From positions 1 through 31,262 of the IMG/VR virus record IMGVR_UViG_3300029286_003703: a stretch of 31,262 nucleotides of DNA; one strand, 5' to 3'. A program made the position numbers and the translations under genes. Shown piece by piece: positions 11,206 through 20,225 of this stretch. The notes beneath the pieces were generated by a model. That model saw only the letters and a program-made list of their open reading frames with translations. It made no database searches and was not told the origin of the DNA. Position 1 is the stretch's first letter. The number at the start of each line of letters is the position of its first letter. This DNA is from a virus.

Positions 11206-11230
11206 GGGGACAGATTTCAAATCTGTCCCC
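11206..11230. repeat. REP-like palindrome, family A, copy 1
   Basis: Perfect inverted repeat with 12-base arms (GGGGACAGATTT and its complement) around a single central base. It lies in the 106-base gap between the tail tube stop and the chaperone start, next to copy 2. As RNA it would form a stable hairpin. Related elements are at 11242, 12328, 18059 and 20201. Confidence 0.8.
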
Positions 11231-11241
11231 TGTTCTTACTG

Positions 11242-11278
11242 GTTTATGGGGACAGATTTCAAATCTGTCCCCATAAAC
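11242..11278. repeat. REP-like palindrome, family A, copy 2, extended arms
   Basis: Perfect inverted repeat with 18-base arms and one central base at 11260. The 12-base core is the same as copy 1, but six further bases on each side (GTTTAT / ATAAAC) also pair. It ends one base before the tail tube stop codon (complement 11280-11282), so it could act as an mRNA 3'-end hairpin for the tube gene or as an attenuator. Confidence 0.8.
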
Positions 11279-11279
11279 T

Positions 11280-12299
11280 TTACCCGGTGACTTCCTCCGC
11301 CGCCGCTTCCGCCGAGATCGTGCAAGCCGCCGTGATCTGATCACTGGCCGGGAAAGTCCGGGAGATCCCGAGTTTTCCCTGCATAAGCAGATACGGCGTC
11401 GAATTCAGCGCGTTTTGGTAGAACCTGAAAAAGAGCTCCGCATTTTTCAGCGACAGGAGCCCGTCGGAGATGCCGTCCTGCAGGTACGCCGTGAACGACC
11501 CCTGATTCAGCGACGAGGACGAGGAACCGAGCGTCATCCCGTAAATCTGTTTGGAACTGACGGAGTTCGTGGTTTCAGGGGGCACGAAATCCGAGGACTT
11601 CGGCACGTCCGTAAAGGCCGGCTCGTAATACTGGGCATAGACCTTTTTCGGCAATGCTCCGGTATGGATCAGCGGCAGGGCCGAGGCGAACGTGACACCG
11701 GCATTCCCGATCACTCCGCCGGAGACGTTGAAACGGTTCTCTTCCCAGGTCGGATAATCGTACCGTTCGCAGTGGGTGCCGACGACCTGTTTGATCTCCG
11801 TGGCCGCGATTTCAAGGGTGGTCGCGGACGACAGCCAGATCTGGGCGATCTCGATTGACCCCACGGGGATCAAAGGAGGGCCGCCTGCCGCGCCGCGCGT
11901 GTTGGAATGCGCCGTGCTGTCCGTCCCCTTGACGACCGCAATCGCCCCGGCAGAGTTGACCGTGATGGAGCTTTTGTTGTGGGTGTTGGCGGGACTGCCG
12001 CCCGTCGGCCTGACGACCGTGGTGTCCACCGCGGCGCCGACCGTGGTAAGCACGCCCGCCAGGTAGCAAGTGAGCGCGGCGACGTCGACCTTTTCATGCG
12101 ACCCGGATACGGCCGGAATCACAGCCCCGCCCGTAGCCAGACCGTCCGGCTTGACATCCGGCTCATATCCCGCCCGGTTCGACCACAGGGCATCCGCACT
12201 GCGGAAATCCTTGTGATCCCCTTGATCCGTCAGGGCTACGAATGTCACAATGTCCTGACCACTTTCATAACTGATTTTTGCATTGCTGGCATCACTCAT
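11280..12299 (-). CDS. Major tail tube protein-like
   Basis: This protein has 339 residues and starts MSDASNAKISYESGQDIVTFVALTDQ, an opening typical of tail tube proteins that stack as hexameric rings. The chain is beta-rich with Ser/Thr-rich loops (TLGSSSSSLNQGSFTAYLQDGISD), then LSLKNAELFFRFYQ, and an Ala-rich end (TISAEAAAEEVTG). It sits immediately before the chaperone with its frameshift site, exactly where the tube gene lies in lambda-type tails (V before G). It is flanked on both sides by palindromic repeats instead of overlapping its neighbours, in keeping with separate, high expression. The length is larger than many minimal tube proteins, suggesting an added surface domain. Confidence 0.7.
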   Translation of the reverse strand: MSDASNAKISYESGQDIVTFVALTDQGDHKDFRSADALWSNRAGYEPDVKPDGLATGGAVIPAVSGSHEKVDVAALTCYLAGVLTTVGAAVDTTVVRPTGGSPANTHNKSSITVNSAGAIAVVKGTDSTAHSNTRGAAGGPPLIPVGSIEIAQIWLSSATTLEIAATEIKQVVGTHCERYDYPTWEENRFNVSGGVIGNAGVTFASALPLIHTGALPKKVYAQYYEPAFTDVPKSSDFVPPETTNSVSSKQIYGMTLGSSSSSLNQGSFTAYLQDGISDGLLSLKNAELFFRFYQNALNSTPYLLMQGKLGISRTFPASDQITAACTISAEAAAEEVTG

Positions 12300-12327: not shown

Positions 12328-12356
12328 ACGGGGACAGATTTGAAATCCGTCCCCGT
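12328..12356. repeat. REP-like palindrome, family A, copy 3
   Basis: 14-base arms around a central base (12342) with one A/C mismatch; the core is GGGGACAGATTT-type, and two extra flanking bases per side (AC / GT) pair as well. It fills the 60-base gap between the cassette's last methyltransferase stop and the tail tube start, upstream of the tube's ribosome site. Confidence 0.75.
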
Positions 12357-12359
12357 TGG

Positions 12360-12914
12360 CTATACTCTGCCAATGGTTATGTACCTGTGCTCGTGCTCAG
12401 GACTTTTTACTGATTCCACCGCGGGCCAATGTTTACGCATCTCCCCCGCCCACCATGCCGCGTCCCCCTTGATCATCGTCAGATCCCGCCCGAGGCGGGT
12501 GTCCGGCCAGTCGTAAACCTCGATGATCAGGTTCCGGCAGGTCCGGCGCATCTCGGCCATGATGGCGTCCAGTTTCGCCGGATCGACGGTCATCAAAACA
12601 TTTATGCAGATCCCCCAGTCGGCGATCGGGAAATCCACCGGCAAGGCCTCCAGCGGCGCGATTGTATAGGTGAGGCGCTCGCCGATCAGCGCGCGGACCT
12701 CACCCTCGAGGGCCGCGTCGGCAAAATCGACCATGTTCACCCGTAAACAGAATTCAAGGAGGCCCGGCTCCGCGCGGCCGGTTCCGCTGCCATAATCATT
12801 GACGACACTCCCAGCGGGGATGTGTTGCCGTAGAAACGGCAAAAGCCGCAGGGCCGTCGAGCCGTTGCGGTAGTTTCCTTTTTGCCAGACCTCGTTGAAT
12901 ATTTCAGGCGTCAT
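12360..12914 (-). CDS. Class I SAM-dependent methyltransferase
   Basis: This protein has 184 residues from the ATG at 12914, which overlaps the upstream stop as ATGA; in-frame ATGs at 12923 and 12938 are alternatives. Motif I of the Rossmann-type methyltransferase fold is clear at residues about 34-43 (VVNDYGSGTGR), followed by an acidic second strand (VNMVDFADAAL) and the aromatic stretch FPIADWGICINVLMTVDP where motif IV normally lies. The substrate is unknown. It closes a six-gene coupled cassette with a methyltransferase-glycosyltransferase fusion and another methyltransferase, so a shared glycan or small-molecule target is more likely than DNA: no DNA methyltransferase NPPY/DPPY motif is visible. 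Confidence 0.7.
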   Translation of the reverse strand: MTPEIFNEVWQKGNYRNGSTALRLLPFLRQHIPAGSVVNDYGSGTGRAEPGLLEFCLRVNMVDFADAALEGEVRALIGERLTYTIAPLEALPVDFPIADWGICINVLMTVDPAKLDAIMAEMRRTCRNLIIEVYDWPDTRLGRDLTMIKGDAAWWAGEMRKHWPAVESVKSPEHEHRYITIGRV

Positions 12915-14086
12915 TCCGTCCATGCCCTCTTTACCCATCCGCCGCAGTCCGGCGGCTTCGGCAATCCGTGAAACATGACCACGCTGCATTCAGGGGGGTT
13001 CTCTCCGGCCAGATTATGCAGTTTGTAACTCTGGACGAACCGCTCCGGGAGAAGGTTCGCCAGGCCGGGAAACTCCCGGTTGATCCACTCCTGGTCGCCG
13101 GGGCTCTCCGGGGTTGGTTTTCCGGTTGCGACATATCTCTCCCAGATCTGCGGCGCCGCGCCGACCGTCAGGAGCACCGCCGAACTCTGACCATCCTGGT
13201 TCCGACTGTCCGTTTTCGGCCATCTCCCCGTCGGCCAGTCCTTCGCCATTGCGAAATCACTCTGATATTTCAAAAGGTCATCCAGCGGCCCGGTGATAAC
13301 AACATCCAAGTCGAGGAACAGCAGGCGCTTTGTGTTGATTCCGGGAATATCCGGCATATAAAGCCCCATCTTCCCCCACCACTTCGGGGCGTCATAGGGC
13401 AGAGGCGCGGTCCGGATGTGCGGATGAATCCCCCGCGGATTATCCGTGAAGCAGACGAAATCATAACCGACCAGGTGGACATTCCGCATGACCATCCCGG
13501 CCAGAATATTGACATATTCCGGGCCGTACTTATCGCCCGCCTTCAGGCAGCACACGGTCACGGCGTCGGCGCCCAAATTCTTCGGGCGCGCCCAGGTTTC
13601 ATCCGTCTCCAAAACAGGACAATTGACAGGAGAAAGCAGCTCCTTGACGGCCTGATTCACCCCCGGCCACAGGTAGTCGTGGCCCATGATCCACCCCGAA
13701 TCCTTGATCTTTGGCAGCCAGCGCAAAATATCCGTCCGGCACCCTTCATAGGTGTGATCCCCGTCAACGAAAACAAAGTCCAGCGAGCTATCGGCTATCG
13801 TCTCGGCGGCCTTGCTCATTTCCATTTCCAGGATGATCGATCGACCGCCATACGGCGCCTTCTTGCCATACACTTCCGCCCGGTTTTCAGTCTGGTCTTT
13901 ATGATGCGCAAAGTGGGGATAACGCGGATCCCAATTGTCCACGCCGATCAATGTCAGATCCGGGCACTCCTCCAGAAGCCGGAAATACGTTTTTCCGTAC
14001 CAGACGCCCAGCTCGGCGCCGATTTTCCAACCGTGTTTCTTTATGAGGCTTTCGATATACATCCCGCGCCTGTCCGTGATATTCAT
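12911..14086 (-). CDS. Fusion of a SAM methyltransferase and a glycosyltransferase-like domain
   Basis: This protein has 391 residues from the ATG at 14086, which overlaps the preceding stop as ATGA; longer upstream readings lie in the other gene. Residues about 1-185 form a Methyltransf_24-like domain: GAELGVWYGKTYFRLLEECP, LTLIGVDNWDPRYPHF, and LDFVFVDGDHTYEGC near residue 105, the Asp-Gly-Asp-His signature of sugar or metabolite methyltransferases. Residues about 195-391 resemble a nucleotide-sugar glycosyltransferase: Tyr-rich start, KWWGKMGLYMPDIPG, then RLLFLDLDVVITGPLDDLL near residue 252, where DLD is a DxD-type metal/nucleotide site, and DQEWINREFPG later. This domain order suggests transfer of a sugar together with its methylation. 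Substrates cannot be read from sequence. Confidence 0.7.
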   Translation of the reverse strand: MNITDRRGMYIESLIKKHGWKIGAELGVWYGKTYFRLLEECPDLTLIGVDNWDPRYPHFAHHKDQTENRAEVYGKKAPYGGRSIILEMEMSKAAETIADSSLDFVFVDGDHTYEGCRTDILRWLPKIKDSGWIMGHDYLWPGVNQAVKELLSPVNCPVLETDETWARPKNLGADAVTVCCLKAGDKYGPEYVNILAGMVMRNVHLVGYDFVCFTDNPRGIHPHIRTAPLPYDAPKWWGKMGLYMPDIPGINTKRLLFLDLDVVITGPLDDLLKYQSDFAMAKDWPTGRWPKTDSRNQDGQSSAVLLTVGAAPQIWERYVATGKPTPESPGDQEWINREFPGLANLLPERFVQSYKLHNLAGENPPECSVVMFHGLPKPPDCGGWVKRAWTE

Positions 14087-14601
14087 GCGACGCCCCCGAA
14101 GAGATAGAGTTTCCCCCAGGCGCCGAAGTCGATCTCCGCTATGGGCGGCGCGCCATTCCATGCGATGAATTGCTCCCGCGCGATCCCCACGCCGACGACC
14201 TCTTTTTCCGGGCATTCGATGATGATGTTCCGGGCGATCCGCTTGGCCTCCCGGAAACATTGTTCTTGCACCGGGGCCAGGTGATGCCAGAGCCGAAGGG
14301 CAACGAGGAGGTCATACCGGCCATCCGCGAAGGGCCAGGGGAAGATCCGGGCATCATGCAAAACTGTTTTTCTGTCGCCCGAGAAATCCCATTCCCCGTC
14401 CGGTAGATCCATCCGGTCGCTGCCGAAGATGAGCCCAGCGCCGAAAGCGCCGATCTCCAGAACCGATTTCGCTCGCTTGACTTCAAGGGTTTTGATGATC
14501 TCAATCGCCCGCGCGTGATAGATCCAGCGTTCCCGGTAGCTGCGCCATTTCTCGTTGCCGCTCACGTTCGCCTCAAAAGTTTCAAAATCAAGATATTTCA
14601 T
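14083..14601 (-). CDS. Class I SAM methyltransferase-like protein
   Basis: This protein has 172 residues. The N-terminal helical part (WRSYRERWIYHARAIEIIK) leads to motif I, VLEIGAFGAGLIFG (residues about 46-60), then DARIFPWPFADGRYDLLVALRLWHHL, the strand and post-strand segment usual in Methyltransf_11-type enzymes, and IIIECPEKEVVGVGI. The spacing and the acidic end of strand 2 are less standard than in the neighbouring methyltransferases, so loss of activity is possible. It overlaps both neighbours by ATGA (14598-14601 and 14083-14086), placing it firmly in the cassette. The target is unknown. Confidence 0.65.
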   Translation of the reverse strand: MKYLDFETFEANVSGNEKWRSYRERWIYHARAIEIIKTLEVKRAKSVLEIGAFGAGLIFGSDRMDLPDGEWDFSGDRKTVLHDARIFPWPFADGRYDLLVALRLWHHLAPVQEQCFREAKRIARNIIIECPEKEVVGVGIAREQFIAWNGAPPIAEIDFGAWGKLYLFGGVA

Positions 14602-15107
14602 TTTTCAACCCTCACATTCGGCACGGTCTCCCGCCCCAGGGCCGCCAGGATGGAACAACGGTTTTTCCCGTCCCTTACCAGGAATCGGGGGACACGATGC
14701 GGCATCATGTCCCCGAATATTGCGGGCCGCTCCGTCATGGTGATCGGCGGCCCCTCCTGGGGCAGATATCCCCGCGCTAAAATGCTTTCCAGGACCGGCA
14801 GGTGCAACCGATCGTATCGGCGTTCCGCCGCCTCCTGGACGATCTGGCGGTCCGCGAGTAGTTTGTCGGCGGGCATCGGGATCCCGCGCTCCTGATAAAT
14901 CTCGCGGACGAAATTCTCTGTGGAAATCTCGTTTTTCCTGCTCTCGCTTGCGTAAATAGAGGCGCGAAACTCCGATATGATATTCCGGCAACGATCAGGG
15001 TGGCCCGCGAGATATTCGCGATATCCCAGGCAGAGCGGCCCGCCCAGCACGGCGATGTGCGGTTCGGTGCTGTAGTCGATCAGGCGGATGGGGATTTCTC
15101 TAAGCAT
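14598..15107 (-). CDS. ParB/sulfiredoxin-like domain protein interrupted by a repeat-encoded segment
   Basis: This protein has 169 residues. The N-terminus (MLREIPIRLIDYSTEPHIAV) and a Glu/Arg-rich helical middle lead to a C-terminal motif FLVRDGKNRCSILAALG near residues 140-157, then VPNVRVEK. An Asp-Gly-x-x-Arg box followed by a helix is the signature of ParB/Srx-type nucleotide-binding domains, found in DNA partition proteins but also in stand-alone phage and glycan-cluster proteins. Directly before this box, residues GDMMPHRVP are encoded by a palindromic element (14688-14714) related to the intergenic repeats, in frame and without a stop. It overlaps its upstream neighbour by 8 bases and its downstream one by ATGA. 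A role as kinase- or NTP-dependent enzyme is possible; partition is unlikely. Confidence 0.5.
   Translation of the reverse strand: MLREIPIRLIDYSTEPHIAVLGGPLCLGYREYLAGHPDRCRNIISEFRASIYASESRKNEISTENFVREIYQERGIPMPADKLLADRQIVQEAAERRYDRLHLPVLESILARGYLPQEGPPITMTERPAIFGDMMPHRVPRFLVRDGKNRCSILAALGRETVPNVRVEK
14688..14714. repeat. REP-like palindrome, family B, copy inside a coding region
   Basis: 13-base arms (GGGGACACGATGC against GCATCATGTCCCC) around one central base at 14701, with one mismatch. The outer GGGGACA/TGTCCCC matches family A; the inner GATGC/GCATC differs. The only other copy is at 19163. Unlike all the others it lies inside a gene and is translated in frame. Confidence 0.7.
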
Positions 15108-15654
15108 TCAGCCATTCCTCCGTGTATTCCCCCAAAAGCTCCCGCGTGTAGCCGCTCATGGACCGGACAGGGCAGCAGCGCAGCAGATCAGCGATCCATC
15201 GCCAGCCCGCCTGGAAATGGGCGTAATGCCCCTCGTCGATCGGGACCCCCGCAAGGATGATCTTTTGATAGCCGAGGCGGAGGCCGACCTTCAGGCCGAG
15301 CATGGCGGATGAGCCGGAGTAATGATGTAGATTACGCGGATCGTCCGCCGCAAAACGGGGGCGGCAATCATAGTCGCATGTCGGCCCTGTCAGATCGGGC
15401 AGGACATGATCGACGCCGGAATGCTGTCGGTTGGAAAATGTCTCATAGTCCGTATTCAATCCGTTCAGTTGCCGCCGTTCCCGGATCGCGGCGAAGTCGT
15501 CCTCATGGCTGACATGATACGCAAGGCGCCGGATATTGAGAATCGCCGGGGATCCGGCGCCGATCAACATAATATCGAACCGCGCATGATCCGGGACAGC
15601 GGCCAGGTCGTAAAGAACGCATGGGGCGGAACCGGCGATAATCAGTTTATCCAT
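15100..15654 (-). CDS. Rossmann-like protein, DUF115/MptE- or sialyltransferase-like (paralogue 1)
   Basis: This protein has 184 residues. The start MDKLIIAGSAPCVLYDLAAV resembles the Gly-rich nucleotide loop of DUF115/MptE-like and CST-I-type sialyltransferase proteins. In the second half HHYSGSSAMLGLKVGLRLG leads to YQKIILAGVPIDEGHYAHF, matching the Gly-x-Ala ... Gly-Tyr-x-x-Ile-x-Leu-x-Gly pattern of those families, where it binds the CMP or pyrophosphoryl donor. The C-terminus PVRSMSGYTRELLGEYTEEW is shared almost word for word with the next gene upstream, so the two arose by duplication. It overlaps its neighbours by 8 bases on each side. The nucleotide-binding inference is moderate; the substrate is unknown. 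Confidence 0.55.
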   Translation of the reverse strand: MDKLIIAGSAPCVLYDLAAVPDHARFDIMLIGAGSPAILNIRRLAYHVSHEDDFAAIRERRQLNGLNTDYETFSNRQHSGVDHVLPDLTGPTCDYDCRPRFAADDPRNLHHYSGSSAMLGLKVGLRLGYQKIILAGVPIDEGHYAHFQAGWRWIADLLRCCPVRSMSGYTRELLGEYTEEWLNA

Positions 15655-16159
15655 TCAACCATTCCTCCGTCGGCGCACCGAGCAGTTCCTTCGTCCAGCC
15701 GGACATCGACCGGACCCGGCCATTCAAGAACTTCTTTTTCTGTTCCCAACCTGCGCGGAAGGTTTCATAGTTATCATTTTTGACGCTCTTGCCGGTCATG
15801 GGGCAACCGCACAGGACGATCCGGCGGTAGCCGAGTTTGACCGCGGCCTGCGCGCCCATGAGAGCCGATGATCCGGAGCATTCTCCGCCAAGCAGGGGCT
15901 CGATGATGTCAACACCCGGTTTCTGCTCGTGCGAAATCACGATGTAGTCCGTGTTCCCGCCGATGGATTCCCGGCGCGCCTTGATCTCCGGGATCTCGAC
16001 CGGGTGGTAGGTCGCCATGTATTTGATCGGCCACGGATACTTGTTGACGGCGTCCAGCCCGATCGCCATGAAGTCCGCCCGGGTCTCGTCCATCGCCAGG
16101 ACGGTGAGATCGTCGAGCACGCAGAGCGCGGCGCCGGTTATGATCAGGATGCTCTTCAT
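15647..16159 (-). CDS. Rossmann-like protein, DUF115/MptE- or sialyltransferase-like (paralogue 2)
   Basis: This protein has 170 residues and starts MKSILIITGAALCVLDDLTV at an ATG overlapping the preceding stop as ATGA. It carries ADFMAIGLDAVNKYPWPIKY, then MATYHPVEIPEIKARRESIG, then CSGSSALMGAQAAVKLGYR and IVLCGCPMTGKSVKND, the same fold order as its neighbour. The end GRVRSMSGWTKELLGAPTEE aligns with the neighbour's end with few differences, while the middle has diverged, so the copies probably act on different substrates or form a heterodimer. It is the first gene of the accessory cassette, directly after the tail-terminator-like gene. The function is inferred from distant family resemblance. 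Confidence 0.55.
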   Translation of the reverse strand: MKSILIITGAALCVLDDLTVLAMDETRADFMAIGLDAVNKYPWPIKYMATYHPVEIPEIKARRESIGGNTDYIVISHEQKPGVDIIEPLLGGECSGSSALMGAQAAVKLGYRRIVLCGCPMTGKSVKNDNYETFRAGWEQKKKFLNGRVRSMSGWTKELLGAPTEEWLNG

Positions 16160-16659
16160 TGGCTGTATGGATCTCCAATCTTCGTCCAGTAGGTCACCAG
16201 AAAAACGGCAGATGCCCCAACGGTCGTCGAACCATCTTCCGGGTAGGAGTCCGTTCCGCCGCCCTGGTAAACGATATTTTCCATGTACGGATTGAGATAA
16301 GTGACCGGCGATGCGGGACTGGTTACCAACCGCCGCCTATCCCATGCCGGAGAGGTGAAGCATTTGATCAGGTCGCCCAGGATGCGCTCGGAAATGACGG
16401 AAAGATTCTCCGCACCGAACACCGCGATTCCCTCGATTTTAACCGGCATTCTGTGGCGCGATTGGCCGTTGGCATTCTCCGCTGTCTCCACCTGCGGCCA
16501 GACCACCGTGCAGGGGAGATCATCCGGATCGATCTTTGGCCGGGCCCGCAGGACCGTTTCGCCGATGTCGGTCGCATAGGCCTGCGGTGAGCCGGTCGTC
16601 CGGATGACGGCGGCCCGCGCGATGAGCTCCAGGATGATCAATTCGCGAATGGTGTTCAT
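16156..16659 (-). CDS. Tail terminator-like protein (U-like position)
   Basis: This protein has 167 residues. It begins with a helix typical of tail-completion proteins (MNTIRELIILELIARAAVIR), then TVVWPQVETAENANGQSR, KIEGIAVFGAENLSVISERI and a C-terminal strand region VGASAVFLVTYWTKIGDPYS. This layout (N-terminal helix, mixed alpha-beta core with a basic strand, late Tyr/Trp strand) fits phage tail terminators, which cap the tube and join it to the head. It follows the Z-like gene and overlaps it by ATGA. In lambda the next gene would be the tail tube; here six accessory genes intervene. Confidence 0.65.
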   Translation of the reverse strand: MNTIRELIILELIARAAVIRTTGSPQAYATDIGETVLRARPKIDPDDLPCTVVWPQVETAENANGQSRHRMPVKIEGIAVFGAENLSVISERILGDLIKCFTSPAWDRRRLVTSPASPVTYLNPYMENIVYQGGGTDSYPEDGSTTVGASAVFLVTYWTKIGDPYSQ

Positions 16660-17252
16660 AGTTTGCTCAGTTCGTAATTCAGTTCTTTGTCAACGGCCTT
16701 GTGAATACGGTCATCCGCCTTCGCCAGAACGGCGTTCATCACCGGATCGTCCCCCAGGATGTCCGGAATGCGGGAGCCGAAGAGCTGTTTCATCGGCAGG
16801 CGGTATTTTTTCGGCAATTTCCCGTAGGCGATTTTCTTCACAGGTCCTTTGGCGCCATGCCACTCCCGCCAGAAGACGCCCTTATGGCCGCTCTTCAAGG
16901 TCTGGATGAACGCCCCTTTGATTACGGAACGCGGATTTTTCTTCTTCACCTGGACGGAGACGCCCGCCTTGGTCTGCCGGGCGGAAAATTCAATCAGCGG
17001 CAGAGGGGGACCCGAGCTTGAGACCAGGCCGGAAAGTTGCGTCACGGTCGCCTTGACGGTCCGGAATGTCCCGTCCACGGCGCTTTTTTTAGCGGTTATG
17101 ATGCTGCGGATCTCCGCCGAGGCGTCGGTCTTGACGCCGGCGAGCGTGTCGTTGATCGCCCGGCTCAGGACTTTCGGAACGACATCGTCAATTCCCCGCA
17201 GCATGGATTTGACATGGGCGACATCCGCCTCGTTGAACTTGATCTCGATCAT
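16656..17252 (-). CDS. Minor tail protein Z-like
   Basis: This protein has 198 residues: MIEIKFNEADVAHVKSMLRG, then VVPKVLSRAINDTLAGVKTDASAEIRSIIT, then a basic beta region (VQVKKKNPRSVIKGAFIQTL, HKGVFWREWHGAKGPVKKIA) and LPKKYRLPMKQLFGSRIPDIL. This order matches the Minor_tail_Z family, whose lambda member helps finish the tail so that it can bind the head. It is coupled by ATGA to the FII-like gene upstream and to the terminator-like gene downstream, the FII-Z-U order of lambda. High Lys content and length are as expected. Confidence 0.8.
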   Translation of the reverse strand: MIEIKFNEADVAHVKSMLRGIDDVVPKVLSRAINDTLAGVKTDASAEIRSIITAKKSAVDGTFRTVKATVTQLSGLVSSSGPPLPLIEFSARQTKAGVSVQVKKKNPRSVIKGAFIQTLKSGHKGVFWREWHGAKGPVKKIAYGKLPKKYRLPMKQLFGSRIPDILGDDPVMNAVLAKADDRIHKAVDKELNYELSKL

Positions 17253-18058: not shown

Positions 18059-18094
18059 ATTCTTGGGGACAGATTGAAATCTGTCCCCAAGAAT
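18059..18094. repeat. REP-like palindrome, family A, copy 4, extended arms
   Basis: Perfect 17-base arms with a 2-base loop (18076-18077). The core is the family A core with one T missing at the centre; five extra bases on each side (ATTCTT / AAGAAT) pair, and differ from the flanks of the other copies. It lies in the gap between the capsid stop and the next start. The remaining part of that gap (18095-18166) shows nothing recognisable. Confidence 0.8.
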
Positions 18095-19162: not shown

Positions 19163-19190
19163 GGGGAACATGATGCGGCATCGTGTCCCC
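19163..19190. repeat. REP-like palindrome, family B, copy in the capsid leader
   Basis: Arms GGGGAACATGATGC and GCATCGTGTCCCC around one central base, with one extra A in the left arm and one mismatch. It lies 27 bases upstream of the capsid start, between decoration-like stop and capsid ATG, so it sits in the transcript leader of the capsid gene. Related to the copy at 14688. Confidence 0.7.
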
Positions 19191-20200: not shown

Positions 20201-20225
20201 GGGGACAGATTTGAAATCTGTTCCC
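20201..20225. repeat. REP-like palindrome, family A, copy 5
   Basis: 12-base arms around a central base (20213) with one G/T mismatch, so the left arm is GGGGACAGATTT and the right arm ends TTCCC. It lies in the 61-base gap between the scaffold/protease stop and the decoration-like start. An extra G extends the left side without pairing. Confidence 0.75.

Follow-up and report, generated by a model that had tools for sequence, protein, structure and literature searches.

Inserted between a U-like tail terminator gene and a presumed tail tube gene of an uncultured virus, six minus-strand genes (c1 to c6) are best read as an exchangeable virion-glycosylation cassette lying within the tail operon, to which we assign a probability of roughly 0.58. 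The window, namely the whole stretch of DNA analyzed, corresponds to one linear virus record in IMG/VR (IMGVR_UViG_3300029286_003703, 31,262 bases). As relatives show, the set of sugar- and methyl-transfer genes can be absent or exchanged for another, and its probable role is to decorate the virus particle. The cassette and its borders are as follows.

12360-16159, minus strand: cassette c1-c6, six open reading frames (ORFs), bordered by the U-like and presumed tube genes
15647..16159, minus strand: c1, core transferase-like protein of 170 amino acids (aa), motif SMSGWTKE (predicted model, Foldseek, profile against PDB, family distribution)
15100..15654, minus strand: c2, paralogue of c1, 184 aa, SMSGYTRE (alignment to c1; repeat D2 across both 3' ends)
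14598..15107, minus strand: c3, ParB/sulfiredoxin-like protein, DGKNR motif, partner of c4 (predicted model, Foldseek, adjacency or fusion to c4)
14083..14601, minus strand: c4, S-adenosylmethionine (SAM)-dependent methyltransferase, 172 aa (Methyltransf_11, 21.8 bits, cut-off 21.2)
12911..14086, minus strand: c5, Methyltransf_24 (residues 25-138) plus GT8/glycogenin-like glycosyltransferase (GT; residues ~175-390), LDLD (PF13578, phrog_1962, glycogenin-type profile)
12360..12914, minus strand: c6, SAM-dependent methyltransferase (Pfam; 4hg2, E 1.8e-6; gene order in relatives)
16156..16659, minus strand: U-like tail terminator gene, upstream border of the site (synteny; phrog_4204 sub-threshold, E 0.32)
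11280..12299, minus strand: presumed tail tube (major tail protein) gene, downstream border (phrog_30644, E 1e-101; synteny with the tape-measure gene)
16656..17252, minus strand: Z-like minor tail protein gene (PF06763, Minor_tail_Z, 25.2 bits, cut-off 23.9)

A variable site in the tail module

The site was surveyed in relatives with searches seeded with c1, which bias the survey toward c1, and with searches seeded with the tube protein or with c6, which are free of that bias. Most relative loci (L numbers) were contig fragments, and their neighbor labels depended on greedy ORF picking and on hidden Markov models that had been iterated over these very loci. In the tube-anchored searches, c1 adjoined U in filled sites, while neither c1 nor the enzymes occurred in empty ones. 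Sites in L142, L146, L147, L149 and the isolated Marinobacter phage PS3 were empty, with only 16-57 bases from U to tube (57 in PS3), and those of L145 and L150 were likewise empty, their ORF calls overlapping; the tube protein of L142 was 72% identical to that of the window. Filled sites reached 7.7 kb, and c1 adjoined U wherever the locus included that end. Partial cassettes were found in L070 (c1-c4-c3) and L080 (c1-c6-GT), and L005 displayed the order c1-GT-PglD/hexapeptide-GT2-DegT-Methyltransf_24-c6. The gene types met in other cassettes at this site comprised GT2, DegT aminotransferase, PglD/hexapeptide, CTP_transf_3 and Methyltransf_24, and that of L071 included a cytidylyltransferase of the CMP-sugar-synthetase type. 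In the uncultured genome MW202621, a weaker match to the c1 profile adjoined the tube gene.

L035 and L124, the latter a contig of a Syntrophaceae metagenome-assembled genome, have the full six-gene order, contrary to the refuting condition named in the first-pass annotation that the genes never occur together elsewhere. Since L035 and L124 look like one phage, only one relative with the exact set is independent, apart from L004, whose sequence equals that of the window along the shared stretch. The same annotation had proposed one self-contained six-gene route, and this was not supported: a fixed six-gene system is rejected, because the contents vary around c1, the only constant gene among the filled sites of this tail module, and the site can be empty.

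Some U-tube sites held other kinds of genes. A LAGLIDADG-like homing endonuclease ORF (a weak match) lay within the cassette of L061 (2344-2847), and large genes encoding 446-560 aa, for which neither Pfam nor PHROG gave a match, were common to three cassettes (L076:6255-10850, L077:7817-12419 and L050:2751-6116). The cl50, cl51 and cl92 genes of three related cassettes matched no Pfam or PHROG family. In another phage, the U-tube site held genes for small proteins, membrane-type or secreted (L136:5720-7477), rather than the enzymes met elsewhere.

Gene coupling and selection

As the first-pass annotation had described, six ORFs lie between the U-like and tube genes, and every junction from U to c6 is an overlap of 4 or 8 bases, namely 4 at U/c1 (16156-16159), 8 at c1/c2 (15647-15654), 8 at c2/c3 (15100-15107), and 4 each at c3/c4 (14598-14601), c4/c5 (14083-14086) and c5/c6 (12911-12914). 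A scan of the coding strand from U to c6 detected neither promoter-like sites above background nor a strong terminator. The 60-base gap between c6 and the tube gene contains a palindromic element and the GGAGG ribosome site of the tube gene. The minus-strand genes of the window also include those for TerL, portal, S49, major capsid protein and tape-measure protein. The names "U-like" and "tail tube" were inferred from synteny, with the Z-like gene upstream and the tape-measure gene downstream; by sequence these earlier identifications are weak, the PHROG match of U being sub-threshold and phrog_30644 being of unknown function. The Pfam match of the Z-like gene confirms, at the level of sequence, the tail module.

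In the comparison of the window phage with L124, the relative nearest to it, the ratio of non-synonymous to synonymous substitution (dN/dS) was 0.08-0.18 for c1-c4 and c6, compared with 0.12 for U and 0.19 for the tube gene, and was saturated for c5. As judged from these ratios, purifying selection is acting on c1-c4 and c6. It is highly improbable that the cassette is a degenerate or neutral remnant without present function, for which the widely varying contents among relatives and a palindromic element inserted in c3 might be cited, given that every frame is open and overlaps its neighbor, dN/dS stays in the above range, the GT retains its catalytic motifs and the palindrome was inserted without a frameshift.

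c1 and c2 are transferase-like paralogues

c1 and c2 are members of a single family, designated A1, in which G117, M151, S152 and G153 are invariant. Their aligned segments were 50% and 41% identical, and c2 is a probable tandem duplicate of c1 by sequence. The element GGAGGAATGG encodes the conserved EEWL C-terminus of both proteins (window 15652-15720 and 15105-15173) and could also act as the ribosome-binding site of the following overlapping gene, an arrangement suggesting tandem duplication with translational coupling.

Because no Pfam or PHROG family matched c1, c2 or c3 among the window proteins scanned, their labels rest on fold evidence. The predicted model of c1 (mean predicted local distance difference test score, pLDDT, 93.2) matched the GT42-type Rossmann fold with a Foldseek probability of 1.0 (TMq 0.67 to Cst-II), and the only PDB entries under E 1e-3 were thiamin pyrophosphokinase (5e-4) and the sialyltransferase 9c08 (8e-4); the fold is not exclusive to sialyltransferases, as thiamin pyrophosphokinases have it too. 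The A1 profile retrieved GT42 enzymes from the PDB at E 0.009-0.13, which gives no significant GT42 family match for c1/c2 by sequence. Every match below E 0.15 was a GT42 enzyme, the alignment covering residues 81-139 of the profile only and including the segment SSG..A..LGY..I.L.G. PF01973, the Maf_flag10 domain of flagellin glycosyltransferases, which resembles Cst-II (PMC11339370), was the Pfam family that c1 relatives matched most often, although weakly (8/33 at E 0.0078 or weaker); the window c1 itself fell below the Pfam cut-off for this Maf_flag10/MptE-like family. Taken as structure predictions, these results place c1 and c2 in the thiamin-pyrophosphokinase/Maf_flag10/GT42-sialyltransferase fold, bearing out the earlier description of a paralogous sialyltransferase/DUF115-like pair.

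The c1 family across virion modules

The A1 motif scan of IMG/VR yielded 130 stretches, 119 of them confirmed, whereas that of 84,980 bacterial and archaeal genomes yielded 10 confirmed loci, so that the family is essentially one of phages and prophages; among isolated phages, Paracoccus phage Pkon1 had the only c1 relative, adjoining its major capsid gene. No open-access paper on the family or the site was found in the open-licence literature.

In a non-redundant set of 84 loci, a recognized virion gene lay within eight genes of c1 in 66, and a gene of glycosyl- or methyltransferase type within four genes in 58. c1 recurred at fixed sites of about four unrelated virion modules, the repeated placements being U|c1..|tube; portal (phrog_145)|GT, methyltransferase, c1|scaffold (phrog_206), where c1 often touches the scaffold gene; major capsid protein (phrog_3437)|c1, methyltransferase, GT|tail tubular (phrog_394); and c1|head morphogenesis (phrog_3517). 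With a within-locus, local control, c1 touched a virion gene in 33 of 66 loci versus 20.9 expected (z 3.4). On the c1 tree, module type required 4 changes, compared with 33 on average after shuffling, and the 21 U-tube rows all fell into one group.

The "alpha-2,3-sialyltransferase" of phage phiNP was considered as a member and rejected, its profile match being weak (13.7 bits over ~40 residues, filters off). Two phage c1 loci carried a methylmalonyl-CoA mutase gene, unexpected in a glycan cassette, beside hexapeptide transferase and DegT aminotransferase genes (L081:10010-11557 and L082:9154-10767); the L082 copy matched PF01642 at E 1.4e-162, and that of L081 was assigned by similarity.

Companion enzymes c3 to c6

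The predicted model of c3 (pLDDT 89.3) found sulfiredoxin as its top Foldseek matches (E 0.04, probability 0.97), spanning only ~67 residues, and contained a helical insertion; this predicted sulfiredoxin/ParB-like core accords with the earlier ParB-like label, and neither of the two predicted folds tested, c1 and c3, is that of a tail protein. A DG-x-x-R phosphate motif, DGKNR or DGHNR, was present in 6 of 7 sequences of the c3 family, and the pattern search recovered four loci, one being a contig identical to the window. c3 and c4 adjoined wherever both were seen, in either order, and c3 formed a fusion with c4 in L006 and with a GT in L125. A second palindrome, GGGGACA.GATGCGGCATC.TGTCCCC, occurs at window 14688-14714, inside c3, and at 19164-19190; the copy in c3 is an in-frame insertion of ~11 residues (the GDMMPHRVPRF region) that none of six c3 relatives has, reminiscent of protein-coding palindromic elements.

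The N-terminal half of c5 matched Methyltransf_24 at E 1.8e-17 (64.5 bits, cut-off 26.3), and its C-terminal half belongs to the GT8-like phage glycosyltransferase family phrog_1962 (E 3.5e-24), whose alignment conserves the DxD motif and whose profile matches glycogenin and Skp1 galactosyltransferase; the Pfam GT8 cut-off was not reached by this domain. The fusion is not general, as the GT is separate in L035/L124 and most relatives and Methyltransf_24 is a gene of its own in L005. c6 was usually the final cassette gene before the tube gene in relatives. Pfam and PHROG matches thus substantiated the previous assignment of c4 and c6 as methyltransferases and of c5 as a methyltransferase-glycosyltransferase fusion, and families, folds and gene coupling together support non-structural glycan- and methyl-transfer enzymes in a late tail operon.

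The presence of methyltransferases, a GT and a ParB-like protein might also recall modification of phage DNA or of the nucleotide pool, comparable to T4-type glucosylation or methylation, and phage fusions of a ParB-CTPase fold with a methyltransferase are known and discussed as possible anti-defense (PMC12704722). c3 is akin to these in its ParB/sulfiredoxin-like predicted fold and in its methyltransferase fusion in L006, and differs in its helical insertion, lack of a Pfam match and tie to a glycan cassette; its nucleoside triphosphate (NTP) binding is putative. A Pfam scan of the window proteins found no hypermodification, hydroxymethylase or DNA-methylase family, the cassette sits in a late tail operon, and the solved structures nearest to the GT belong to enzymes that glycosylate proteins or to glycogenins. 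DNA modification, which the first-pass annotation had entertained, gained no positive support and is very unlikely.

Weighing the virion-glycosylation reading

Several observations tell against decoration of the virion. That these particles are glycosylated, on which substrate, with which donor sugar and in which order of steps is inferred. The tube protein was set aside as an obvious target, since its Ser/Thr content and length were alike at empty and filled sites. In 18 of the 84 loci, no recognized virion gene lay within eight genes of c1; the excess of c1 contact with virion genes was moderate only, and its tracking of module type could be explained by plain vertical inheritance. The GNGPS donor loop of GT42 is missing in c1/c2, the window reading GAALC/GSAPC, and the catalytic residues of GT42 (catalytic His, CMP-binding) could not be placed in c1, given an alignment limited to profile residues 81-139. 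c1 is the sole cassette gene at the site of L007, and in lambdoid phage phiNP a moron-like place between Rz and terS holds a homologue of the c5 GT together with a sialyltransferase-like gene.

The divergent donor loop and solitary c1, together with thiamin pyrophosphokinase as the best Foldseek match, would also suit another enzyme of the thiamin-pyrophosphokinase/MptE superfamily (nucleotide/pterin pyrophosphokinase-like) or a non-catalytic assembly factor, the enzyme neighbors then representing a loose moron hotspot. The transferase-type neighbors in 58 loci and the exclusively GT42 profile matches argue against such a role, as do the empty sites, which show that the tail module can dispense with c1; we regard this explanation as improbable.

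The main rival, itself unlikely, is that the cassette changes the host surface, namely lipopolysaccharide, capsule or another envelope glycan, late in infection or in the lysogen, for superinfection exclusion or for preventing released virions from binding debris. The phiNP arrangement would fit it, as would the moron/host-takeover class given to similar phage transferases (phrog_1962; the GtrB-like match of a GT2 neighbor). However, the window cassette has no promoter signal of its own and its translation is coupled to that of the tail-terminator-like gene, the Pfam scan recognized no flippase or membrane anchor gene in it, and the c1 family occupies fixed places in several virion modules while tracking module type.

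Known systems and proposed mechanism

There are few phage systems in which glycosylation of the virion has been demonstrated. Covalent glycans are reported on the capsids of mycobacteriophages Che8 and Rita (PMC11256854), and in cluster O phages tandem GTs beside an O-methyltransferase are reported to modify the capsid and the tail tube (PMC11600133); both papers cite Freeman et al. (2023). The Che8/Rita modification is the closest demonstrated biology. Che8, like the window cassette, encodes both glycosyltransferases and methyltransferases, and its gp108 is a GT2-Methyltransf_24 fusion, of which c5 is a counterpart with the domains in reverse order. In contrast, the Che8 enzymes are of GT2 and GT25 types and lie at the right end of the genome, whereas the window genes occupy an exchangeable site inside the tail operon. 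When gp108-110 were compared with the window profiles, only the Methyltransf_24 part was related, and no counterparts of c1, the GT8-like domain, c3, c4 or c6 were found among these three proteins.

c1 also resembles the superfamily of the central domain of Maf flagellin glycosyltransferases (PF01973), itself Cst-II-like; unlike Maf, it is a stand-alone protein without the N- and C-terminal domains. Its fold and the SSG..A..LGY..I.L.G segment agree with GT42 Cst-II and the phage "alpha-2,3-sialyltransferase" phrog_4603, but it is ~90 aa shorter than GT42 sialyltransferases and bears its own SMSGWTKE signature. Transfer to protein, as by Maf, is proposed for c1 on this likeness.

Under the virion-glycosylation reading, the cassette would be made late, together with the tail proteins. 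c1, along with its duplicate c2, would either link a nucleotide-activated sugar to a protein of the capsid or tail or prime a glycan, c1 supplying the module-specific step of attachment to the virion protein. The GT8-like half of c5 would extend the glycan with sugar from a uridine diphosphate (UDP) donor, and the Methyltransf_24 half of c5, the c3-c4 pair and c6 would methylate or otherwise cap it, c3 being the putative ParB/Srx NTP-binding partner of the methyltransferase. Different companion gene sets would change the glycan. Because the window cassette lacks a sugar-nucleotide synthesis gene, such as relatives have, the host presumably provides the donor; hence, of the earlier suggestion that the route makes or modifies a sugar, attaching and editing a host-derived sugar is the likelier part and making one the less likely.

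A broader proposition, which we put forward tentatively and at slightly less than even odds, is that such loci are widespread undescribed virion-glycan islands. Phage-specific minimal Maf/GT42-like protein glycosyltransferases (c1, SMSGWTKE), each subfamily tied to one virion architecture, would anchor exchangeable glycan-building and methylating sets at a fixed head/tail-operon site of siphoviruses and podoviruses, whereby coats would differ among related phages. If true, an uncharacterized transferase family would mark virion-glycan cassettes across many uncultured phages and offer a sequence handle for finding them, and the natural series at one site (empty, c1 only, full) could serve for testing the role of the coat in adsorption, stability and evasion. 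A protein glycosyltransferase of 170 aa would, in addition, have value as a tool, and ParB/Srx-like proteins would become linked to glycan methylation.

Palindromic repeats in the window

The palindrome GGGGACAGATTTCAAATCTGTCCCC is present in five copies in the window (11206-11230, 11248-11272, 12330-12354, ~18064-18088 and 20201-20225). Most of these copies fall on borders between genes of the head-tail operon, the c6/tube junction included, and the element is abundant in L050 and L141 as well.

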